Below are positions 1-30,128 of a stretch of DNA of 64,000 nucleotides, piece by piece; the first letter of the stretch is position 1, and every line of letters begins with the position of its first letter. Location of the stretch: contig JALHNO010000010.1 in assembly GCA_022843465.1 (NCBI GenBank), positions 83,771-147,770 on the forward strand. Reading direction: 5' to 3'. A program made the position numbers and the translations under genes. The notes under the pieces were generated by a model. It did not search any database. It had not been told where the DNA came from and worked only from the letters and a program-made list of their open reading frames with translations. Source of the DNA: Pseudomonadota bacterium. GTDB lineage: Bacteria > Pseudomonadota > Gammaproteobacteria > Xanthomonadales > Ahniellaceae.

Positions 1-757
1 CTCGACATGCGCTTCAACGCATGTCGAAAACGACGTGCTTCACCCATCCCTGGTGCACCGCATCCGGCCCGCACTTCCTGTGCGGGCGTGGAGCTCGGCT
101 GACGATGCCTGGGTATCGAACTTCGTTTGTGAGTGGGGCAGACACCGTCCCTGGTGCCGTACATCCGGCCCGCGCGTCAGCGCGGGCGTTCAGCACGTCT
201 CGACATGCGCTTCAACGCATGTCGAAAACGACGTGCTTCACCCATCCCTGGTGCACCGCATCCGGCCCGCACTTCCTGTGCGGGCGTGGAGCTCGGCTGA
301 CGATGCCTGGGTATCGAGCTTCGTTCGAAGGAGAGGCAGACACCGTCCCTGGTGCCGTACATCCGGCCCGCGCGTCAGCGCGGGCGTTCAGCACGTCTCG
401 ACATGCGCTTCGGCAACTGCTCCTGCGTTGCTCTACCTCGGGCATCCATGCCCTCGTCAACGCATGTCGAAAACGACGTGCTTCACCCATCCCTGGTGCA
501 CAACATCCTGCCCGCACTTCCTGTGCGGGCGTGGAGCTCGGCTGACGATGCCTGGGTATCGAACTTCGTTCGAAGGAGAGGCAGACACCGTCCCTGGTGC
601 ACAACATCCTGCCCGCACTTCCTGTGCGGGCGTGGAGCTCGGCTGACGATGCCTGGGTATCGAACTTCGTTCGAAGGAGAGGCAGACACCGTCCCTGGTG
701 CACAACATCCTGCCCGCACTTCCTGTGCGGGCGTGGAGCTCGGCTGACGATGCCTGG
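1..757. repeat. Tandem array of hairpin-rich repeats (198-bp then 101-bp units)
   Basis: Units of 198 bp begin at 1, 199 and 397. The third carries extra bases inside the loop of its first hairpin. From 489 the array continues as 101-bp units starting at 489, 590 and 691, the last one breaking off near 757. Each long unit has an ACATGCG/CGCATGT hairpin and a GCCCGCAC-ttcct-GTGCGGGC hairpin, and several units carry CTTCGTTCGAAG. The near-identical ORFs that run through it in several frames are by-products of repetition and none has a convincing ribosome binding site. The array continues off the left edge, so its full size is unknown. It ends just short of the stop codon of the efflux outer membrane gene. 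Confidence 0.93.
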
Positions 758-2190: not shown

Positions 2191-5100
2191 GCTGCACCTC
2201 CCGTGCGGCGCGGTCTTCACGACGTTTCACGATGGTGCGGATGGCGACATAGAAGACCGGTGTCAGCACCAGGCCGAACAAAGTCACTCCAAGCATGCCA
2301 CTGAATACCGTGATGCCCATGACGTGACGAATCTCGGCGCCCGGTCCACTCGCCAGCATCAGTGGCACCACGCCCATGATGAAGGCGAAGCTGGTCATCA
2401 GGATCGGCCGCAGGCGCAGCCGGCAGGCCTCGAGCGCAGCATCGATGACACTGCGGCCCTGATGCTCCAGTTCGCGCGCGAACTCGACGATCAGGATGGC
2501 GTTCTTGCAGGCCAGGCCCATCAGCAGCACCAGACCCACCTGGACGAAGATATTGTTGTCGAGAAATTCCGGCTGGGCGCCGGCGGCCGCCAGTGACACC
2601 TTGAGAATCTCCGCCATATTGACCAGCCAGATGCCACCCATCGCCGACAGCATGCACATCGGCACGATCAGGATCACCGCCAGCGGCAGCGACCAGCTCT
2701 CGTACAGCGCCGACAGGGCGAGGAAGACGAGCAGCACACAGAGCGGAAACACGATCAGCGAGGTATCACCCTGATTGACCTGCTGATAACTCATATCGGT
2801 CCACTCGAAGGCCATGCCACGCGGCAGCGACTGCTCCATGATCCGGGTCAGCGCCGCGATGGCCTCGTTCGAGGACATCATCGCGGCATTGGTTTCGCCG
2901 GTCAGATCAGCCGCCAGATAGCCGTTGTAGCGGATCACCGGATCGGGCCCAAAGCTCTGTTTCAGATCCACTACGGTATTGATCGGCACCATCTGACCCG
3001 CGCCATTGCGCACACGCAACTGGGCAATGTCTTCGGGTTGATCGCGATACGGCGCATCGGCCTGGGCGATCACCTGATAGGTGCGCCCGAACTTGTTGAA
3101 GTCGTTGACGTACTGCGAACCCAGATAGACCTGCAGGGTCTCGTACACACTGCTGAGCGTCAGGCCCTGATCCTTGATCTTGGTGCGATCGACGACGGCG
3201 TCGAACTGCGGCACATTGACCTGATAGCTCGAGAACGGTGGAAAGAAGCCGGGTGTCTGCATCAGCTGACCTTGCAGGGCGCCTACCGCATTGTGCAGTT
3301 CGCCGTAGCCGGCACCGCTGCGGTCCTGGATCATCAGGGAATAGCCATTGCCGTTGCCGAGCCCGAGCACCGGCGGTGGCAGCAAGGCAAACGCCAGCGC
3401 TTCCTGGATCCCGGCGAATTTCCCATTCAACTCGCCCACGATCTCGCTCGCCTTGCGCTCGCGCTTGTCGAACGGATCGAGTCCGAAGAAGATCACGCCC
3501 TGATTCGGTGTATTGGTGAACTGCAGGCCATTGAGGCCAGGAAACGCCACCGCACTTTCGATGCCCTCGGTAGACAGGGCCATATCGCTCATCTTGCGGA
3601 TCACCGCATCGGTGCGATCGAGCGAGGCACCGGCCGGCAGTTGCACGATACCGAACAGGTACTGCTTGTCCTGCACCGGAATGAACCCACTCGATACCGA
3701 GCGGAACGCAACAAAGGTCAGCGCGATCAGCAGGGCGTAGACCAGGAACACCCAGGCACGGTGCTGCACCATGCCACCGACCATGCCGGAATAGCGTTCG
3801 CTGGAGCGCTTGAAGAAGCGGTTGAACGGCCGGAACGCCCAGCCGAACGCAAAGTCGATACCGCGCTGGACTCTGTCCTTCTTGCCATGAGGCTTGAGCA
3901 GCACAGCTGCCAGCGCCGGCGACAGGGTCAGCGAGTTGATCGCCGAGATCACCGTCGAGATCGCGATGGTGACCGCGAACTGGCGATAGAACTGGCCAGT
4001 GACTCCGGACAGGAAGGCGATCGGGATGAACACCGCGCACAGCACCACGGCGATGGCGATGATCGGTCCGCTGACCTCGCGCATTGCCTGATGCGCAGCG
4101 GCAAGTGGCGACAATCCGTTCTCGATGTTGCGTTCGACATTCTCGACCACGACGATGGCGTCGTCGACCACGATGCCGATTGCCAGCACCATGCCGAACA
4201 GGGTCAGCACATTGATCGAGAAGCCCAGTGCCAGCAGCACCGCAAAGGTACCAATGATCGACACCGGCACCGCGAGCAGGGGAATGATCGAGGCGCGCCA
4301 GGTCTGCAGGAACAGGATCACCACCAGCACCACGAAGAGGATGGCTTCCAGCAGGGTATAGATCACCTCCTTGATCGAGTCGCGGACGAACACCGTCGGA
4401 TCGTAGACGACGTCGTACTTCACGCCCTCCGGGAATGCCCGGCTCAATCGCTTCATTCGCTTGCGCACCGCATCCGACAGCGCGATCGAATTGGAACCCG
4501 GTGCCTGGAAGATCGCGATCGCCGCGGCCTGCTTGTTGTTGAGCAGGGAACGCAGCGTGTAATCGGCAGCGCCGAGTTCGATGCGCGCAACGTCCTTCAA
4601 TCGCGTGGTCTCGCCAAGGGCGCCGGTCTTGATGATGATGTCGCCGAACTCGGCCTCCTCGCTGAGGCGGCCGATGGCATTGATCGGAGTCGTGAAGTCG
4701 GTGCCGGCGCCGCTCGGTGATGCGCCCAACTGGCCAGCGGAAACCTGGACGTTCTGTTCGCGGATGGCATTGACCACCTCGCCGGCATTGAGCCCGCGCG
4801 CGGCAACCTTCTCCGGGTCGAGCCAGATCCGCATCGCATAGTCGCCGCCGCCGAACGCCAGTGCCTGACCAACGCCTTCGAGACGGGCGAGTTCGTCCTT
4901 GACCCGCAGCGTGGCGTAATTGCGCAGATAGTTGGCATCGTAGCGACCATTGGGCGAGACCAGGTGCACGACCATGGTCAGGTTCGGCGATGACTTCACC
5001 GTGCTGACACCGAGTCGACGCACTTCCTCGGGCAGGCGCGGCAGCGCCTGACTGACGCGGTTCTGCACTTCGACCTGGGCCTTGTCGATATCGGTCTCGC

Positions 5101-5392
5101 CCTTGAAGGTGATGTTGAGCTGCAATACCCCATCGCTGCCGGCGATCGACTTCATGTAGATCATGTCCTCGACGCCATTGATCGCCTCTTCAAGCGGCGA
5201 AGCAACGGTCTCGGCAATGGTCTTGGGATTGGCGCCTGGATAGACCGCGCGCACCTGGATGGTGGGCGGCACCACGTCGGGATACTCGCTGATCGGCAAC
5301 TGCGGAATCGCAATCAGGCCGGCCAGAAAGATCAGCGTGGACAGTACCGCCGCAAAGATCGGGCGATCGACAAAGAACTTGGAAAAATCCAT
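2183..5392 (-). CDS. RND multidrug efflux transporter, HAE1 family (MexF-like)
   Basis: This 1069-residue inner-membrane proton/drug antiporter is full length for the AcrB/MexB/MexF family. It begins MDFSKFFVDRPIFAAVLS, the family's first membrane helix. It carries the PEYPDV-type motif (ISEYPDVVPP) and the central helix 4 with GIVVDDAIVVVENVER, whose paired Asp residues relay protons. The second half repeats the architecture with LLMGLACKNAILIVEFA. Large periplasmic porter and docking loops lie between helices 1-2 and 7-8. An AAGGA ribosome site lies 9 bases before the ATG and the adaptor stop codon is only 12 bases upstream, so adaptor, pump and duct form one operon. The N-terminal sequence resembles MexF/BpeF more than AcrB. 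Substrates cannot be told from sequence. Confidence 0.96.
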   Translation of the reverse strand: MDFSKFFVDRPIFAAVLSTLIFLAGLIAIPQLPISEYPDVVPPTIQVRAVYPGANPKTIAETVASPLEEAINGVEDMIYMKSIAGSDGVLQLNITFKGETDIDKAQVEVQNRVSQALPRLPEEVRRLGVSTVKSSPNLTMVVHLVSPNGRYDANYLRNYATLRVKDELARLEGVGQALAFGGGDYAMRIWLDPEKVAARGLNAGEVVNAIREQNVQVSAGQLGASPSGAGTDFTTPINAIGRLSEEAEFGDIIIKTGALGETTRLKDVARIELGAADYTLRSLLNNKQAAAIAIFQAPGSNSIALSDAVRKRMKRLSRAFPEGVKYDVVYDPTVFVRDSIKEVIYTLLEAILFVVLVVILFLQTWRASIIPLLAVPVSIIGTFAVLLALGFSINVLTLFGMVLAIGIVVDDAIVVVENVERNIENGLSPLAAAHQAMREVSGPIIAIAVVLCAVFIPIAFLSGVTGQFYRQFAVTIAISTVISAINSLTLSPALAAVLLKPHGKKDRVQRGIDFAFGWAFRPFNRFFKRSSERYSGMVGGMVQHRAWVFLVYALLIALTFVAFRSVSSGFIPVQDKQYLFGIVQLPAGASLDRTDAVIRKMSDMALSTEGIESAVAFPGLNGLQFTNTPNQGVIFFGLDPFDKRERKASEIVGELNGKFAGIQEALAFALLPPPVLGLGNGNGYSLMIQDRSGAGYGELHNAVGALQGQLMQTPGFFPPFSSYQVNVPQFDAVVDRTKIKDQGLTLSSVYETLQVYLGSQYVNDFNKFGRTYQVIAQADAPYRDQPEDIAQLRVRNGAGQMVPINTVVDLKQSFGPDPVIRYNGYLAADLTGETNAAMMSSNEAIAALTRIMEQSLPRGMAFEWTDMSYQQVNQGDTSLIVFPLCVLLVFLALSALYESWSLPLAVILIVPMCMLSAMGGIWLVNMAEILKVSLAAAGAQPEFLDNNIFVQVGLVLLMGLACKNAILIVEFARELEHQGRSVIDAALEACRLRLRPILMTSFAFIMGVVPLMLASGPGAEIRHVMGITVFSGMLGVTLFGLVLTPVFYVAIRTIVKRREDRAAREVQHA

Positions 5393-5404
5393 GGGTCTCG
5401 GTCC

Positions 5405-6595
5405 TTATTCCTGCTCGGGCGCTGGCGCAGGCGGCGCACCTTCGGGCGGCTTGGGCGCGGGGGCCGGATCGCCCATCGCGATCTCGACCGGCTGCACCGG
5501 CATGCCCGGGAAAAACACCTTGGCGACACCGTGCACGATGATCTTGTCACCGGCGCTGAGGCCGCTTTCGATCACGCGCAGGCCTTCCACCATCGGGCCG
5601 AGCACGATGTCCTTGCGCGTCGCCGCATTCTTCGGGCCCAGCGTGTAGACAAACTTGCGGTCCTGATCGGTAAGCACGGCCTTGTCATCGATCAGCATCG
5701 CCTGCTGGCTGCGATTGCCCTGCAGGCGCACGCGCGCAAACAGGCCCGAGGCGAGTTTTCCGCTGCTGTTGTCGATGACCGCGCGGACCTTGACGGTGCC
5801 GCTCGCCGGATCGATCTGGTTGTCGACGAAATCGAGTTGGCCACGGTGTGGATAGCCCTCTTCATTGGCCAGCCCCACTTCAACCGGATTGCTGTCGGCG
5901 CCGGCCTGGGCGCGATCGGCATAGGTCAACCAGGTGGCCTCGTTGCCTTCGAAGTAGACGTGCATCGGGTTTTCCGACACCACCGTGGTCAGCAGGGTGC
6001 CGGCCTCGACCAGATTGCCCTCGCGCAGCATGGAGGCGCCGATGCGGCCGCTGATCGGACTCTCGATGCGTGCGTAGGTGATATCGAGTTGCGCCGCGCG
6101 CACGGCGGCTTCCGCAACCGCAATCCCGGCAGCGGCAGTTTTTTCTGCGCTCAGGCGCTGCTGGTATTCCTCGGCCGAGATCGCCTTGGCAGCGACCAGC
6201 TTGTCGGCGCGTTCGCGTTCATCGATGGCGAGGGCGGCGACGGTGCGCGCACGGCTGAGCTCCGCCTGGGCACTGCTGAGCCGGGTCTGGAATGGTCGAG
6301 GGTCAATGACGAACAGCAGATCGCCCTTCTGTACCGAGCCACCTTCACTGAACGCGATCCGGTCCAGATAGCCGGCAACGCGGGGTCTGATCTCGACGTG
6401 CTCGACCGCGGCAATGCGGCCGCTGAATTCATCCCAGAGCTGAACCTCCTTGATCAGTACCGGAGCCACCGATACCTCGGGCGGTGGCATCTGCATGCCG
6501 CCTTCGGGCGGGCTGCCGCACCCCGCAAGCGCCAGACCGAGGGCGGCGCTCAACAGGAACAGGCGAAACGGGCGCAGGGGTGCAGGGCGCGTCAT
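5405..6595 (-). CDS. RND efflux periplasmic adaptor lipoprotein (MexE-like)
   Basis: This 396-residue membrane fusion protein links the pump to the outer membrane duct. The ATG at 6595 is chosen because a GGAGAG ribosome site precedes it and because the longer start at 6619 would overlap the neighbouring gene. A lipoprotein signal ends in LAGC with Cys26. The order after that is typical: a lipoyl half-motif (EIRPRVAGYLDRIAFSEG, VQKGDLLFVID), an alpha-helical hairpin, the second lipoyl half (ITYARIESPISGRIG), a beta-barrel and a membrane-proximal domain. The C-terminal tail is Pro/Ala/Glu rich. It is the second gene of the efflux operon, following the SDR-like gene by 20 bp. Confidence 0.94.
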   Translation of the reverse strand: MTRPAPLRPFRLFLLSAALGLALAGCGSPPEGGMQMPPPEVSVAPVLIKEVQLWDEFSGRIAAVEHVEIRPRVAGYLDRIAFSEGGSVQKGDLLFVIDPRPFQTRLSSAQAELSRARTVAALAIDERERADKLVAAKAISAEEYQQRLSAEKTAAAGIAVAEAAVRAAQLDITYARIESPISGRIGASMLREGNLVEAGTLLTTVVSENPMHVYFEGNEATWLTYADRAQAGADSNPVEVGLANEEGYPHRGQLDFVDNQIDPASGTVKVRAVIDNSSGKLASGLFARVRLQGNRSQQAMLIDDKAVLTDQDRKFVYTLGPKNAATRKDIVLGPMVEGLRVIESGLSAGDKIIVHGVAKVFFPGMPVQPVEIAMGDPAPAPKPPEGAPPAPAPEQE

Positions 6596-24652: not shown

Positions 24653-24997
24653 GGGCTCCCGAAAGTCCGGAGCAGCATTGCCGCTCCCGCATTGAGTCGA
24701 CGGTTGGAGCTCAGCGCGAAAATGCGCCGCCTCATCCTCGACCAGGGGTGAATATCGCACAGCCGGACATTGGCGAATATTGTCGGCAGCCGGATGCGGC
24801 GCGGGGCGTCGCGGTCCACCGAGTCTGGCGCTCACGCTGGTTCGCCTTTCCTGCATGCCGATCTGGTCTACTTGCCGGCAGCCATGTTAGAAGTCGGTGA
24901 CCAGGGGATGGTGATCACCGGTGAACTGGAAAGCGCGTCCGACGGCGATCTCGACCGATCACAATTCTGCTGCAGTACCACTTCCGAGGAACCTGCC
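24653..24997. other. Divergent promoter region between acs and the MHS transporter
   Basis: These 345 bases should carry both promoters. A perfect 10-bp palindrome GGTGATCACC (24910-24919) lies about 80 bases upstream of the transporter and could be a regulator site. No coding sequence is supported. Confidence 0.4.
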
Positions 24998-26665
24998 ATG
25001 GCTGCCGTCATTCCACCATTGCAACCAGATGCCGGTGAAATCACCTCGGGTCACAGGAAGGTCATCTTCGCCTCCAGCCTCGGCACGGTGTTCGAGTGGT
25101 ACGACTTCTACCTGTACGGATCGCTGGCCGCGATCATCGCCAAACAGTTCTTCTCGGCACTGAATCCGACCAGCGCCTTCATCTTCGCACTGCTCGCCTT
25201 CGCCGCCGGATTTGCCGTGCGACCGTTCGGCGCGCTGTTGTTCGGCCGTCTTGGCGATCTGGTGGGTCGCAAGCACACCTTTCTGATCACGATCGTGATC
25301 ATGGGCATCTCGACCTTTCTGGTCGGCATCCTGCCTTCCTATGCCAGCATCGGCGTGGCGGCGCCGATCATCCTGATCGCGCTGCGCATGCTGCAGGGGC
25401 TGGCGCTCGGCGGTGAGTATGGCGGCGCGGCGACTTACGTGGCCGAGCATGCTCCGGCCGGCAAGCGCGGCCTCTATACCAGTTTCATCCAGACCACGGC
25501 CACGCTCGGGCTGTTTCTTTCGCTGCTGGTGATTCTCGGTTGCCGGATGGCGCTCGGTGCCGAGGCGTTCGAGGCCTGGGGCTGGCGGATTCCGTTCCTG
25601 CTGTCAGCCATCCTGCTGGTGATCTCGGTGTATATCCGTCTGCAGTTGAACGAGTCGCCACTGTTCCGTCAGATGAAGGAAGCGGGCACGCAATCGAAGG
25701 CGCCGCTGACCGAGAGTTTCGCCAACTGGAAGAACGGCCGCATCGTGTTGCTTGCCCTGCTCGGTGCCACGGCGGGCCAGGCGGTGGTCTGGTATGCCGG
25801 GCAGTTCTATGCGCTGTTCTTCCTGACCCAGACGCTGAAGATCGATGGCACCACGGCCAATCTGCTGATGGCAGCAGCCCTGGTGATCGGTACGCCGTTC
25901 TTCATCGTGTTCGGCTGGCTGTCCGATCGCGTCGGCCGCAAGCCGATCATCCTGGCCGGCTGTCTGATTGCGGCAGCGACCTATTTTCCGATCTTCGCGG
26001 CACTTGCCCACTATGGGAACCCGGCACTCGAGGCGGCAAGCAAGTCGAGCCCGGTGGTTGTCGTTGCGGACCCCGCCGATTGCAGCTTCCAGTTCGATCC
26101 GGTCGGCAAGAAGGTGTTCAACCGCAGTTGCGATATCGCCAAGTCGGCGCTGGCCAAAAGCGGCGTGACCTACCGCAATGCAGTTGCGCCGGCGGGATCG
26201 CTCGCCAGCGTCAAGGTCGGCGATACCGTAATCAGTTCGCTGGATGGCCGGGCCCTGGATGCGACGGCATTCAAGGACGCCAGCGCCGAGTTCAACGCCG
26301 AACTCACTGCTGCGCTGGCCTCCGCCGGTTATCCGCCCAAGGCCGATCCGGCGGGCATCAACAAGGGCATGGTGCTGTTGCTGCTGGTGATCCTGGTGCT
26401 CTACGTGACCATGGTCTACGGGCCGATTGCCGCCTGGCTGGTCGAGCTGTTCCCGACGCGCATCCGCTACACCTCGATGTCGCTGCCGTATCACATCGGC
26501 AATGGCTGGTTTGGTGGCTTCCTGCCGACCACGGCGTTTGCCCTGGTGGCCTTCAGCGGCGATATCTATTTCGGACTCTGGTATCCGATCCTCATCGCCC
26601 TGATGACCGTGGTGCTTGGGGCTCTGTTCCTGCCCGAGACCAGGGATGTCGATATTTCCAGGTAG
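24998..26665 (+). CDS. MFS transporter, metabolite:H+ symporter (MHS/ProP-like) family
   Basis: This 555-residue protein begins at the ATG at 24998 behind GAGGA. It has the MHS signatures GTVFEWYDFYLYG (residues 29-41), RPFGALLFGRLGDLVGRK (75-92) and RMLQGLALGGEYGGAATYVAEHAP, and a second cytosolic motif WLSDRVGRK. Twelve membrane helices are expected. Between the helices that follow that motif lies an insert at about residues 340-450, rich in Ala, Ser and Asp, with two cysteines, probably periplasmic. Ordinary ProP-like carriers lack it. The position opposite acs suggests uptake of acetate or another carboxylate; this is inference. Confidence 0.9.
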   Translation: MAAVIPPLQPDAGEITSGHRKVIFASSLGTVFEWYDFYLYGSLAAIIAKQFFSALNPTSAFIFALLAFAAGFAVRPFGALLFGRLGDLVGRKHTFLITIVIMGISTFLVGILPSYASIGVAAPIILIALRMLQGLALGGEYGGAATYVAEHAPAGKRGLYTSFIQTTATLGLFLSLLVILGCRMALGAEAFEAWGWRIPFLLSAILLVISVYIRLQLNESPLFRQMKEAGTQSKAPLTESFANWKNGRIVLLALLGATAGQAVVWYAGQFYALFFLTQTLKIDGTTANLLMAAALVIGTPFFIVFGWLSDRVGRKPIILAGCLIAAATYFPIFAALAHYGNPALEAASKSSPVVVVADPADCSFQFDPVGKKVFNRSCDIAKSALAKSGVTYRNAVAPAGSLASVKVGDTVISSLDGRALDATAFKDASAEFNAELTAALASAGYPPKADPAGINKGMVLLLLVILVLYVTMVYGPIAAWLVELFPTRIRYTSMSLPYHIGNGWFGGFLPTTAFALVAFSGDIYFGLWYPILIALMTVVLGALFLPETRDVDISR

Positions 26666-27408
26666 CGCGTCCATCCGATGATCGCCTGCGCCCGCCTGCG
26701 GGGGCAGGCGGCCAGCAGGGCCGGATGAGGGAAATTGGCGACCGTGTCGGGTCGTGCGCTGATAGGCGCGATGACTTGGCGTGTTCGATGCCGCCCGGTT
26801 GTCGCGAGGATCATAGGATGTGCCAAGGCCGCAGGCCGAAGCGCATCAGTTCAAGCAGATTCGATATCTGTCGAACCTGTCGAACCTGTCGAACTCCTCA
26901 CGAAGATCCAGGGCCAGCATGCTCCGCATGCGTCATCGCTGCGCGATGCCAAAGAGCTTTCACTCGCTTGCGCTTAGCCCCCTTCGCCCGCTTGCGGGAG
27001 AAGGGCCGGGGATGAGGGCGTCGCTGCAATTCCGCCCGGTTGTCGCGAGGATCGTAGGGTGTGCCAAGGCCGCAGGCCGAAGCGCATCAGTTCAAGCAGT
27101 TTCGATATCTGTCGAACCTGTCGAACTCCTCACGAAGATACAGAGCCAGCTTGCTCCGCAAGCGTCATCGCTCTGCGATGCCAAAGAGCTTTCACTCGCT
27201 TACGCTTTGCTCCCTTCTCCCGCTTGCGGGAGAAGGGCCGGGGATGAGGGCGAGGCTGCGATTCCGCTCGATCGACGCCGGAACCGTAGGATGTGCTGAG
27301 GCCGCAGGCCGAAGCGCATCAATCCACAGAGGACCGAACTCGTCGAACTCGTCACGAAGATCCAGAGCCAGCTTGCTCCGCAAGCGTCATCGCTCTGCGA
27401 TGCCAAAG

Positions 27409-28140
27409 AGCTTTCGCTCGCTTACGCGAGCGAGTCACTTTCTCTTGCGTGGCCAAGAGAAAGTAACCAAAGAGAAGGCCACCCCACGCTGGTTTCGTTC
27501 CCCATCGCGCTTCGCAAACCATCCCTGGTGGACGGCGCCCGGCCCGGCATCCCTGCCGGGCGTTCGACACCATTCGACATGCGATTCAACGCATGTCGAA
27601 AGCATGGTGTCTCACCCCTCCAGGTACGTGCTCGGCGGCCGCGGTCGACGATTGCACATCCCTGTGCAAGCGTCGCCTGAGCGACATCCTGTCGCTCACC
27701 CTTCGGGCTCACCGTCCACCGATCACCGGCGCAGAGGGGCCCCATTGAAGAGCGCGCGCTTCCTGCGCGCAGAAGCCAGAGCCAGAGCCAAAGCCAAAGC
27801 CAAAGCCAAAGCCAAAGCCAAAGCCAAAGCCAAAGCCAAAGCCGAGATCCCGGCGGCCTTGCTCCGATCCTGAGCTTCTGCGCGCCGGGAGCGCGCTTCT
27901 TTTCCCAAGGGGCCCCTCAGCGCCGGTGATCGGTGGTCGCGATCAGCACGCAGTGTGGCCGCATGGATGCGGCCAGTCGGCGATCGCACAAGGATGTGCG
28001 CCCGCCGACCAGCGAGCACCGAGCACGTACCTGGAGGGCAGGATGCCCGGAAGGCGGCGCTGTGGGGTGGCCTTCTCTTTGGTTACTTTCTCTTGGCCAC
28101 GCAAGAGAAAGTGACTCGCTCGCGTAAGCGAGTGAAAGCT
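27409..28140. repeat. Long inverted repeat: 67-bp perfect arms at the core of the island
   Basis: Positions 27421-27487 and 28062-28128 are exact reverse complements. The match extends outwards to 27409 and 28140 with a single G/T mismatch. Each arm has its own hairpin ACTTTCTCTTG-cgtggc-CAAGAGAAAGT. A second inverted pair lies inside, at about 27710-27773 and 27873-27935 (CCGATCACCGGCGC and its complement, CAGAAG and its complement). The space between the arms includes the ACATGCG/CGCATGT hairpin also present in the array at position 1. Confidence 0.93.
27775..27840. repeat. Hexanucleotide microsatellite (GCCAAA)9
   Basis: Two GCCAGA units are followed by nine perfect GCCAAA units (27787-27840), close to the axis of the surrounding palindrome. 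In one frame it would encode an Ala-Lys repeat, but no gene is supported. Long perfect runs of this type are prone to slippage. Confidence 0.95.
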
Positions 28141-29020
28141 CTGTGTCGGCGCGCAGCGACGGCGCATGCGAAGCATGCTGGCCCTGGATCCTCGTGACGA
28201 GTTCGACGAGTTCGAAGAGTACCGAGCTCCGACAATTGATGCGCTTCGGCCTGCGGCCTCAGCACATCCTACGGTTCAATCGTAGAACAGACGGCATCGC
28301 AACGTCGCCCTCATCCCCGGCCCTTCTCCCGCAAGCGGGCGAAGGGGGCAAAGCGTAAGCGAGTGAAAGCTCTGTGTCGGCGCGCAGCGATGACGCTTGC
28401 GGAGCAAGCTGGCTCTGGATCTTTGTGACGAGTTCGATAGGTTCGACAGATATCGAATCTGCTTGAACTGATGCGCTTCGGCCTGCGGCCTCAGCGCATC
28501 CGACCGTCCCCGCGACAATCCTGCATCATCGCCTGTTTGCCCTCACCCTCACCCTCTCCCGCAAGCGGGCGAAGGGGGCTAAGCGCAAGCGAGTGAAAGC
28601 TCTTTGGCATCGCGCAGCGATGACGCTTGCGGAGCAAGCTGGCTCTGGATCTTCGTGACCAGTTCGACAAGTTCGACGAGTTCGAACAGTACCGATCTTC
28701 CGCCAATTGATGCGCTTCGGCCTGCGGCCTCAGCACATCCTACGGTTCAATCGTAGAGCAGACGGCATCGCAACGTCGCCCTCATCCCCGGCCCTTCTCC
28801 CGCAAGCGGGCGAAGGGGGCAAAGCGCAAGCGAGTGAAAGCTCTTTGGCATCGCGCAGCGATGACGCATGCGGAGCATGCTGGCCCTGGATCCTCGTGAC
28901 GAGTTCGACGAGTTCGAAGAGTACCGAGCTCCGACAATTGATGCGCTTCGGCCTGCGGCCTCAGCACATCCTACGATTCCGGCGTTGATCGAGCGGAATC
29001 GTGGGTTTCCCTCACCCTGT

Positions 29021-29102
29021 CCCTCTCCCGCCAAGCGGGAGAGGGGATCAAGGCACTTCGCAGATTTCCCTCAGTAGCCCGCTCCCGCCAAGCGGGAGCG
29101 GG
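29021..29102. repeat. Two covarying 11-bp hairpins downstream of the thioesterase
   Basis: CCCTCTCCCGC-caa-GCGGGAGAGGG (29021-29045) and CCCGCTCCCGC-caa-GCGGGAGCGGG (29078-29102) are both perfect. They differ by one base pair, T:A against G:C, which keeps the pairing. They lie beyond the stop of the minus-strand thioesterase and may act in termination or mRNA 3' protection, though no T-run follows. Confidence 0.75.
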
Positions 29103-29145
29103 GGCCAAGAGGCTCAGCGGGACGCGGGAGAGGGGATCAAGCGGA

Positions 29146-29631
29146 TCAGGCTTGGGCGGCGAGAAAGCGCTTGCGTTCGGCCTCGATCTCGCGGCGCATG
29201 GCCATGATGCGGCGGGCGTAGTCGGACAGGGCGATTTCCTCGGGCGTATCGGCGACGAAGGCGGGTACGGCCACCGGTTGCCGGGCATCGTCTACCGCGA
29301 CGAAGACCATCAGGCAATGGGTCGTGCGCTCTGCCTGCTCGGCTGTGGTGTCGCGCGCCGAGACATTGACCGCCACATGCATGCTGGTGGTTCCGGTGTG
29401 GACGATTTCGGCGTGCACTTCGACCAGTTGGCCGATATGGATCGGTCGCTCGAACTGGATGCCGCCGACATAGACGGTGACGCAGTAGCGCCCGGCCCAG
29501 CCTGCGGCGCAGGCGTAGCCGGCCTGATCGATCCACTTCATGACCGCGCCGCCATGCACCTTGCCGCCGAAATTGACATCGGTGGGTTCGGCGAGGAAGC
29601 GGAAGGTGATTTCACGCTGGATGCCGGCCAT
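29146..29631 (-). CDS. Acyl-CoA thioesterase, hotdog fold (YciA/BACH-like)
   Basis: This 161-residue protein starts at the ATG at 29631 (MAGIQREITFRFLAEP), behind an AGGGAG; the longer frame upstream overlaps the divergent GFA gene. The hotdog core is clear: FGGKVHGGAVMKWIDQAGYACAAGWAG with the catalytic region after the HGG, and the second strand set around GQLVEVHAEIVHTGTTSM. Enzymes of this type hydrolyse short to long acyl-CoA esters in the cytosol. The tail is a charged helix (RIMAMRREIEAERKRFLAAQA without a known role). Confidence 0.9.
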   Translation of the reverse strand: MAGIQREITFRFLAEPTDVNFGGKVHGGAVMKWIDQAGYACAAGWAGRYCVTVYVGGIQFERPIHIGQLVEVHAEIVHTGTTSMHVAVNVSARDTTAEQAERTTHCLMVFVAVDDARQPVAVPAFVADTPEEIALSDYARRIMAMRREIEAERKRFLAAQA

Positions 29632-29723
29632 CGGCTTGCTCCCTGGGGGAATCACGGCGGGCTTGCCGAGATCAGTGGGTGAGATTACCGTCTGACCATC
29701 GGCTTGCGCGAACAGGAGGCGGT

Positions 29724-30128
29724 TTGGATACAGAGATTGCCGGATCCTGCCTCTGTGGTGCGCTGCGGTTCTCCATCGCAATGCCGAGCCTCTGGTGCGC
29801 GCATTGTCACTGCAGCATGTGCCAGCGCGCCCATGGCAGCGCCTTCGTGACCTGGGTGGGCGTGCCGGCCGGGAACTTTCGCCTGATCGCGGATGCGTCG
29901 CTGACCTGGTTCAATTCCTCGCCAGGCGCCGAGCGCGGATTCTGCCGGGATTGCGGCTCCAGTCTGTTTTTTCGCTCCGAGCGTTGGCCCGGTGAGATCC
30001 ATGTGACCCTGGCCAATCTGCAGGCGCCGATCGATCGCGCCCCGCAGGCGCATGTCTTTCATGACAGTCACGTCGCCTGGGTCGAGCTTGGCGACGCGCT
30101 GCCCCGCAAGCCGGTACCCGAAGGTTGA
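29724..30128 (+). CDS. GFA family zinc-binding protein
   Basis: This 134-residue protein belongs to the glutathione-dependent formaldehyde-activating fold family (Mss4-like). Zinc ligands are visible: SCLCGAL near the start, HCHCSMCQRAHGS and GFCRDCGSSLFF. A TTG at 29724 preceded by AGGAGG four bases upstream is the most likely start. A GTG at 29679 would add 15 residues and run into the divergent thioesterase leader. The family members' activity is mostly unproven, so only the fold is assigned. Confidence 0.85.
   Translation: MDTEIAGSCLCGALRFSIAMPSLWCAHCHCSMCQRAHGSAFVTWVGVPAGNFRLIADASLTWFNSSPGAERGFCRDCGSSLFFRSERWPGEIHVTLANLQAPIDRAPQAHVFHDSHVAWVELGDALPRKPVPEG

Follow-up and report, generated by a model that had tools for sequence, protein, structure and literature searches.

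The window, a stretch of 64,000 nucleotides from the assembly of a Pseudomonadota bacterium of the family Ahniellaceae (contig JALHNO010000010.1), contains a concentric imperfect palindrome (26,786-29,001) between two convergent genes. These genes face the element with their 3' ends and encode a sugar/MFS transporter (24,770-26,665, forward strand; PF00083, E 9e-37) and a 4HBT thioesterase (29,146-29,781, reverse strand; PF03061, E 3.8e-19). Left of the centre are three direct copies of a 240-bp unit, which begin at about 26,788, 27,029 and 27,261 with a spacing of 241 and 232 and occupy 26,786-27,027, 27,029-27,260 and 27,261-27,434 on the forward strand, the third leading into the inner arm. 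Inverted copies begin right of the centre at about 28,228, 28,458 and 28,699 (28,228-28,446, 28,458-28,676 and 28,699-28,917, reverse strand) and are followed by an outermost partial copy (28,907-29,001, reverse strand). An earlier note on this DNA had described the same layout of three direct and four inverted copies, and comparison of the repeats bears out both the layout and its coordinates. Rather than a single sequence, the unit is a mosaic composed of smaller hairpins; its copies are 61-96% alike, with the copy at 28,458-28,676 being 61% alike to its neighbour.

The inner inverted arms (27,335-27,487, forward strand, and 28,062-28,214, reverse strand) are 91% complementary. Perfect inner arms, as claimed in the earlier note, do exist, but their length is 71 bp (27,417-27,487 and 28,062-28,132) rather than 67 bp. 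Two more perfect inverted matches, of 72 bp and 71 bp, lie between the units. Both arms contain a putative A/T-rich triplex-pseudoknot motif, with the segments A-L-A'-TAACC-A''-L' (27,434-27,485, forward strand, in the left arm; 28,064-28,115, reverse strand, in the right arm). The arms enclose a core (27,488-28,061) that is a near palindrome of hairpins. At its centre is the microsatellite that had been noted before, a repeat of AAAGCC (about 27,773-27,849, forward strand), and the single further inverted pair of that description becomes three: 27,713-27,743 with 27,909-27,939, 27,616-27,642 with 28,012-28,038, and 27,754-27,776 with 27,874-27,896. In a related element (L165, 3390-3600), the stems of the core hairpins vary while the loop is constant (CATCCTG / CATCCCTG) and is mirrored on the opposite side.

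The outer layer consists of hairpins of two kinds. The first are 48-bp hairpins, G/C-rich and related to the TMECO/PIT triplex motifs. A hairpin with the TMECO layout, CCCTTCTCCCGCTTGCGGGAGAAGGGCCGGGGATGAGGG, has four copies in the window, at 26,980-27,018 (forward strand; DNA fold -9.9 kcal/mol), 27,212-27,250 (forward strand; -12.4 kcal/mol, z -3.2), 28,308-28,346 and 28,779-28,817 (both reverse strand). The strict TMECO consensus for the first two strands, CCCTCNCCC N3-6 GGGNGAGGG, has 0 matches in the window, where the hairpin has 10-nt strands of the form CCCTTCTCCC / GGGAGAAGGG / GGGGATGAGGG; the strict full consensus is present in a sister copy (L009, 4404-4439, contig C41) and in 56 other loci. 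The second kind comprises five REP-like hairpins tagged with GTAGG[AG]TG, at 27,054-27,088 (forward strand, within unit 2), 27,286-27,320 (forward strand, within unit 3), 28,238-28,272, 28,709-28,743 and 28,940-28,974 (all reverse strand). The inner arm carries GTNAC, not GTAG. Outside the palindrome, two or three further hairpins (CCCTCTCCCGCCAAGCGGGAGAGGGG) lie beside the 3' end of the thioesterase gene (29,015-29,142).

Open reading frames within the element gave no match in a Pfam search and have a weak codon signal, and a coding content was rejected on these grounds. A search of Rfam produced only chance-level matches under the gathering scores and no curated RNA family.

Copies in the same genome and in other genomes

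The inner arm finds 43 matches in its own genome, and the outer REP-like hairpin occurs at 176 genome sites compared to 0 for a reversed control pattern; chance is therefore excluded as the source of the structure. We fetched the loci of the arm matches and mapped unit, arm and core in each. At least six other complete copies were found (contigs C41, C8, C10, C1 [twice] and C12), together with two copies truncated by contig ends (C3 and C35) and four diverged relatives (C4, C20, C24 and C26). These copies share one architecture, an arm, a core and an inverted arm set in arrays of hairpin units, and consist of short intergenic palindromes in high copy number and inverted pairs. Relative to the arms, the core is found either way round. 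Most copies are located at gene 3' ends, and sites with both flanks available are convergent or tandem but never divergent. One locus (L021, 2395-2460, contig C2) has the same outer layers around a small GTAG-type palindrome, AACGTAGGTCGGG...CCCGACCTACGTT, instead of an arm and core, indicating that the layers are independent, exchangeable modules.

The earlier note had proposed that copies of the 240-bp unit be sought throughout the genome. Many were found and they are dispersed, so the unit is neither unique nor local. The note had also offered recent expansion as a reason for the persistence of the structure and had named misassembly as what would undo its description. A recent local duplication or an assembly error is, in our view, an extremely unlikely origin. 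Two contigs of this genome do end within such elements, which counts in its favour, but the copies differ by 5-40%, and the same layout is present in at least six other complete loci and in many genomes. In addition, the closest relatives of the arms sit in other loci: the nearest relative of an arm was the other arm of the same element in 0 of 20 cases in this genome, which argues against local duplication and for exchange between loci. As contigs C3 and C35 end inside elements, exact repeat counts are provisional.

We scanned the genomes of the order for the arm motif (CAAGAGAAAGTNACCAAAGAGAA), allowing up to 2 mismatches. It was present in 90 of 398 genomes, with up to 164 copies per genome, while a control pattern gave 2 hits in all; the same scan found it in none of 9 other genomes of the window's own family. 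Among the matches listed, carriers within the order include Dyella, Rudaea, Lysobacter, Luteimonas, Rhodanobacter and Dokdonella, and carriers outside the order include Pseudomonas, Acidovorax, Pseudorhodoferax and Sulfuriferula. Viral matches were limited to three contigs. Spread by plasmids was considered and rejected: two records share pieces with the query, at a coverage of 4-5%. Across 101 loci the arms point inward, with 76 inverted hits downstream versus 6 upstream, and the partner arm is 310-600 bp away in 49 of 57 loci. In one genome (G271), 30 of 34 A/T-rich arms are followed about 195 bp on by an opposed TMECO-type motif, and most arms also have a second, co-oriented one at about 260 bp (loci L221-L240). 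This regular spacing suggests that the two kinds of triplex motif form stereotyped composites there. None of six pieces of the arm, each of 14-16 bases, occurs in the open-access papers searched.

The three-strand match of the inner arm

An alignment of arms from many genomes gives the segment order seen in the window, where A is CTTTCTCTTG, A' is CAAGAGAAAG, A'' is AAAGAGAAG and L is the loop between A and A'. The extraction of 287 arms left the relation of A'' to A' free, and 282 of them carry an A'' that exactly mirrors A' (10 of 13 forms of A'). Eight of the mirror forms are non-symmetric (AAGAGAAA/AAAGAGAA, AAAAGAAA/AAAGAAAA, AAAGAGAA/AAGAGAAA, AAAGAAAA/AAAAGAAA, AGAGAAA/AAAGAGA, AAGAAAA/AAAAGAA, GAAAGAAA/AAAGAAAG and AAGAAAAG/GAAAAGAA), and none of the non-symmetric forms in these 287 arms has an A'' that is a direct copy of A'. 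When 43 distinct arms are aligned without gaps, 344 of 344 cells obey the mirror. Controls on the same 43 arms gave 37-52% for slid columns, 53.5% for a direct repeat and at most 86.6% for shuffles. The inner arm thereby has the layout of a class II motif, a hairpin followed by a mirror third strand.

Both helices of the arm also covary. Helix A/A' is paired in 94.4% of cells, a figure that is partly conditional as extraction demanded a purine A'' and a rough A/A' hairpin; 8 pairs have changed on both sides and 0 on one side (G.U). Helix L/L' is paired in 75.8% of cells versus 52.9% after shuffling, in a fixed register that leaves 24% of cells unpaired. Its covariation is 0.464 versus 0.122 (0 of 500 shuffles), with 40 two-sided versus 2 one-sided changes. 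Moreover, changes from C-G*G to T-A*A occur jointly across A, A' and A'', as counted over alignment cells rather than over independent events on a tree. A mirror cannot arise from base pairing or from strand copying; it is the match required by a third purine strand lying antiparallel in C-G*G and T-A*A triplets. To judge from the alignments, this covariation is the signature expected of an antiparallel purine-motif DNA triplex within one strand, and the two helices with A'' are a predicted H-type pseudoknot whose third segment runs along the first helix.

We also considered whether the motif acts as RNA, as a terminator, mRNA protector or pseudoknot at gene 3' ends that works in both directions since both arms face inward. 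The location at gene 3' ends and the inward arms mean that each transcript meets the motif in sense orientation, which favours this explanation. RNA helices, however, pass through G.U, and one-sided changes number 0 in A/A' and 2 compared to 40 in L/L'; the absence of G.U steps argues for DNA rather than RNA. Tandem sites are common, and PIT motifs are reported to have neither promoter nor terminator activity (Holder et al., PMC4666352). We therefore regard a role as RNA as improbable. A separate feature of the A/A' stem is a C.A or A.C mismatch (alignment A1, columns 3 and 32). It is retained by 33 of 43 arms, in the forms GTCAC...GTAAC or GTAAC...GTCAC, as though it were needed in its own right.

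The earlier note held that the whole acts like a 2.2-kb palindrome, and the 71-bp perfect arms and concentric symmetry of the window would favour a long palindrome, extruded as a cruciform, as the functional unit. In other copies, however, the arms are separated by spacers of 300-600 bp or by a whole gene, and arm types combine at random: of 48 inward pairs, 12 have the same triplex type in both arms, where 11.6 are expected by chance. The window element, with identical arm types, is among the minority. A preference for unlike arms within an element was rejected as well, as there is no excess over the type frequencies. Random pairing of arms, together with a perfect three-strand match in each, points to selection on the fold of each arm and not on complementarity between arms. 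We consider it very improbable that the cruciform is the functional unit, and the palindrome as a selected property is not upheld by these pairings. The suggestion that persistence implies function gains support, but for another reason, namely that the match kept is the internal three-strand match and not that between the arms. A nested palindrome of this kind, judged by its sequence, should be read as inverted pairs of putatively self-folding ends in preference to one cruciform.

Sites, gain and loss, and genes at the centre

The preference for gene 3' ends also shows in two arm-rich genomes, with 36 convergent and 4 divergent sites. Two orthologous intergenic sites were compared across 19-20 Dyella genomes, and the element there is present, absent or present with a reversed core. 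The empty sites are gaps of 15-160 bp, at which no precise insertion footprint or clean target duplication was found. As the junctions are unclean, insertion and deletion are indistinguishable, and the lack of a clean target duplication means that whole intergenic regions may have been lost or replaced. By inspection, one of these sites (L205) is also occupied, in one species, by an IS30-like transposase, and the other (L189) by a PIN-domain-like gene; both read as insertion hot spots.

Five elements (L067, L082, L119, L148 and L165) have one gene between two mirrored half cores, at 2767-3627, 5039-5749, 2774-3259, 5584-6411 and 3715-4530, respectively. These genes are of the leucine carboxyl methyltransferase type, of the COQ7 type, a HAD-type fragment and two without a Pfam family. 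The genome with the COQ7-type gene has another one elsewhere, to which the central copy is 32% identical. Third-position GC is low (0.30-0.57) in four of the five. This pattern suggests a gain of accessory genes at the element's centre, where the window has its microsatellite. The central genes are mostly of foreign composition, and a cassette-like gain of genes is possible. A PADLOC search of three cargo proteins gave no defence hit. Wide inward pairs in G271 were rejected as gene cassettes, since ordinary genes (a XerD-like recombinase in L240) lie between separate elements. Taken together, presence and absence, both core orientations and the central genes suggest recombination or mobility.

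In one genome (G292, contigs C2, C6 and C7), the strand of single arms follows the local GC skew, 12/3 versus 4/13, which hints at an orientation linked to replication. This bias has p = 0.004 but was noticed before it was tested, and in G271 it is not significant.

Relation to known repeats and a possible mechanism

We propose that the element is probably a dispersed, non-coding, BIME-like composite repeat made of self-folding intrastrand-triplex motifs in concentric inverted pairs. What the sequence statistics themselves establish is the layout, the covariation, how far the motif has spread, the bias towards gene 3' ends and the presence or absence at orthologous sites. The outer layer would be formed by the G/C-rich TMECO/PIT-like motif and the inner arms by the A/T-rich motif. 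In the latter, the pyrimidine strand A would pair with the purine strand A', the mirror strand A'' would lie antiparallel along A' in C-G*G and T-A*A triplets, and loop L would pair with L' beyond A'', locking the fold as an H-type pseudoknot. Such folds may form on DNA that is transiently single stranded during replication, recombination or transfer. A protein acting in trans may recognise them as the ends of a non-autonomous element that moves or recombines. It is also possible that the folds provoke template switching and break repair. Either option would explain exchange between loci, inversion of the core, gain and loss, nesting of palindromes and the central genes. A further step, which we put forward only tentatively, is that the copies belong to a family of elements, widespread in gamma- and betaproteobacteria, that recombine or move. 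Locked DNA triple helices would form the ends of these elements, and some copies would carry a single accessory gene like a cassette.

The closest known repeats are TMECO and PIT (Holder et al. 2015, PMC4666352; PIT of Hoyne/Maher is cited there). According to that paper, TMECO is a G/C-rich intrastrand triplex motif of 262 proteobacterial genomes that is linked with instability; its triplex is stable in vitro, but DMS footprinting in vivo gave no sign of it, and PIT motifs had no promoter or terminator activity. Shared features are the pyrimidine-purine-purine class II form, the mirror third strand, the intergenic location, the inverted pairs and the occurrence in many proteobacteria. The outer hairpin of our element is of the same kind, with the strict consensus matched in copy L009. 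The inner arm differs in that it is A/T-rich, is apparently locked by a second covarying helix as a pseudoknot and occurs in inward pairs around a core. Neither a name for this inner arm nor a demonstration of its mirror by triple covariation appears in the sections of PMC4666352 consulted.

The REP/BIME repeats of the GTAG and CGTC superfamilies (PMC3733652) resemble the element in their small palindromic units, high copy number, inverted dimers, hetero-dimers and location at gene 3' ends, and GTAG-tagged hairpins belong to the 240-bp unit of the window. One alternative reading is a common BIME/REP mosaic that RAYT (Y1, HUH) transposases spread and maintain, with the mirror as a by-product of transposase binding. 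The own genome has 16 Y1_Tnp matches, REP dimers at gene 3' ends and RAYT terminal repeats have been described (PMC3733652), and the weak association of strand with GC skew in one genome is in keeping with such an origin, as are the GTAG-tagged hairpins. However, 8 of the 16 Y1_Tnp loci were inspected and none has an arm or core; a single broken RAYT among them has TMECO-like hairpins nearby. Moreover, 4 of 18 arm-rich genomes (G217, G188, G335 and G282) have no Y1_Tnp match. A link of RAYT to the arms was thus rejected on the inspected loci, and we consider this explanation unlikely. The composite of triplex motifs that we favour also differs from REP/BIME in its concentric, multilayer nesting over 2.2 kb, in its three-strand arms and in having no linked RAYT found for the arms.

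With MITEs and the terminal inverted repeats of RAYT-type transposons (TIRtrons, PMC3733652), the element shares inverted ends that face inward, a non-coding core and presence or absence at orthologous sites. Unlike these, it has a centre that is sometimes one unrelated gene. No transposase with its ends was found, and the empty Dyella sites showed no clean target duplication. The attC sites of integrons, folded single strands that mark one-gene cassettes, may be comparable in how they work and only in that respect. We take the element's sequence not to look like attC.

The known kind to which this element belongs is, by its sequence features, that of intrastrand triplex repeats in a BIME-like mosaic. 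Its unexpected feature is the covariation, which opens the use of such triplexes in living cells to test. It has long been asked whether DNA triplexes form in cells and do anything there, and the known bacterial triplex repeats have a structure in vitro but no reported in vivo signal or function. Three strands that changed together across many genomes would answer this question from evolution and supply a natural subject, present in many copies, on which to test triplexes. If true, the triple covariation would be the first evolutionary evidence of an intramolecular DNA triplex selected in living bacteria. The element may also offer a way for single accessory genes to be acquired at the ends of genes.

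Finally, core-like fragments are present within positions 1-250 of the window (2-49 and 144-247, 74-83% alike to the core), so that another element is likely at the window start or beyond it.
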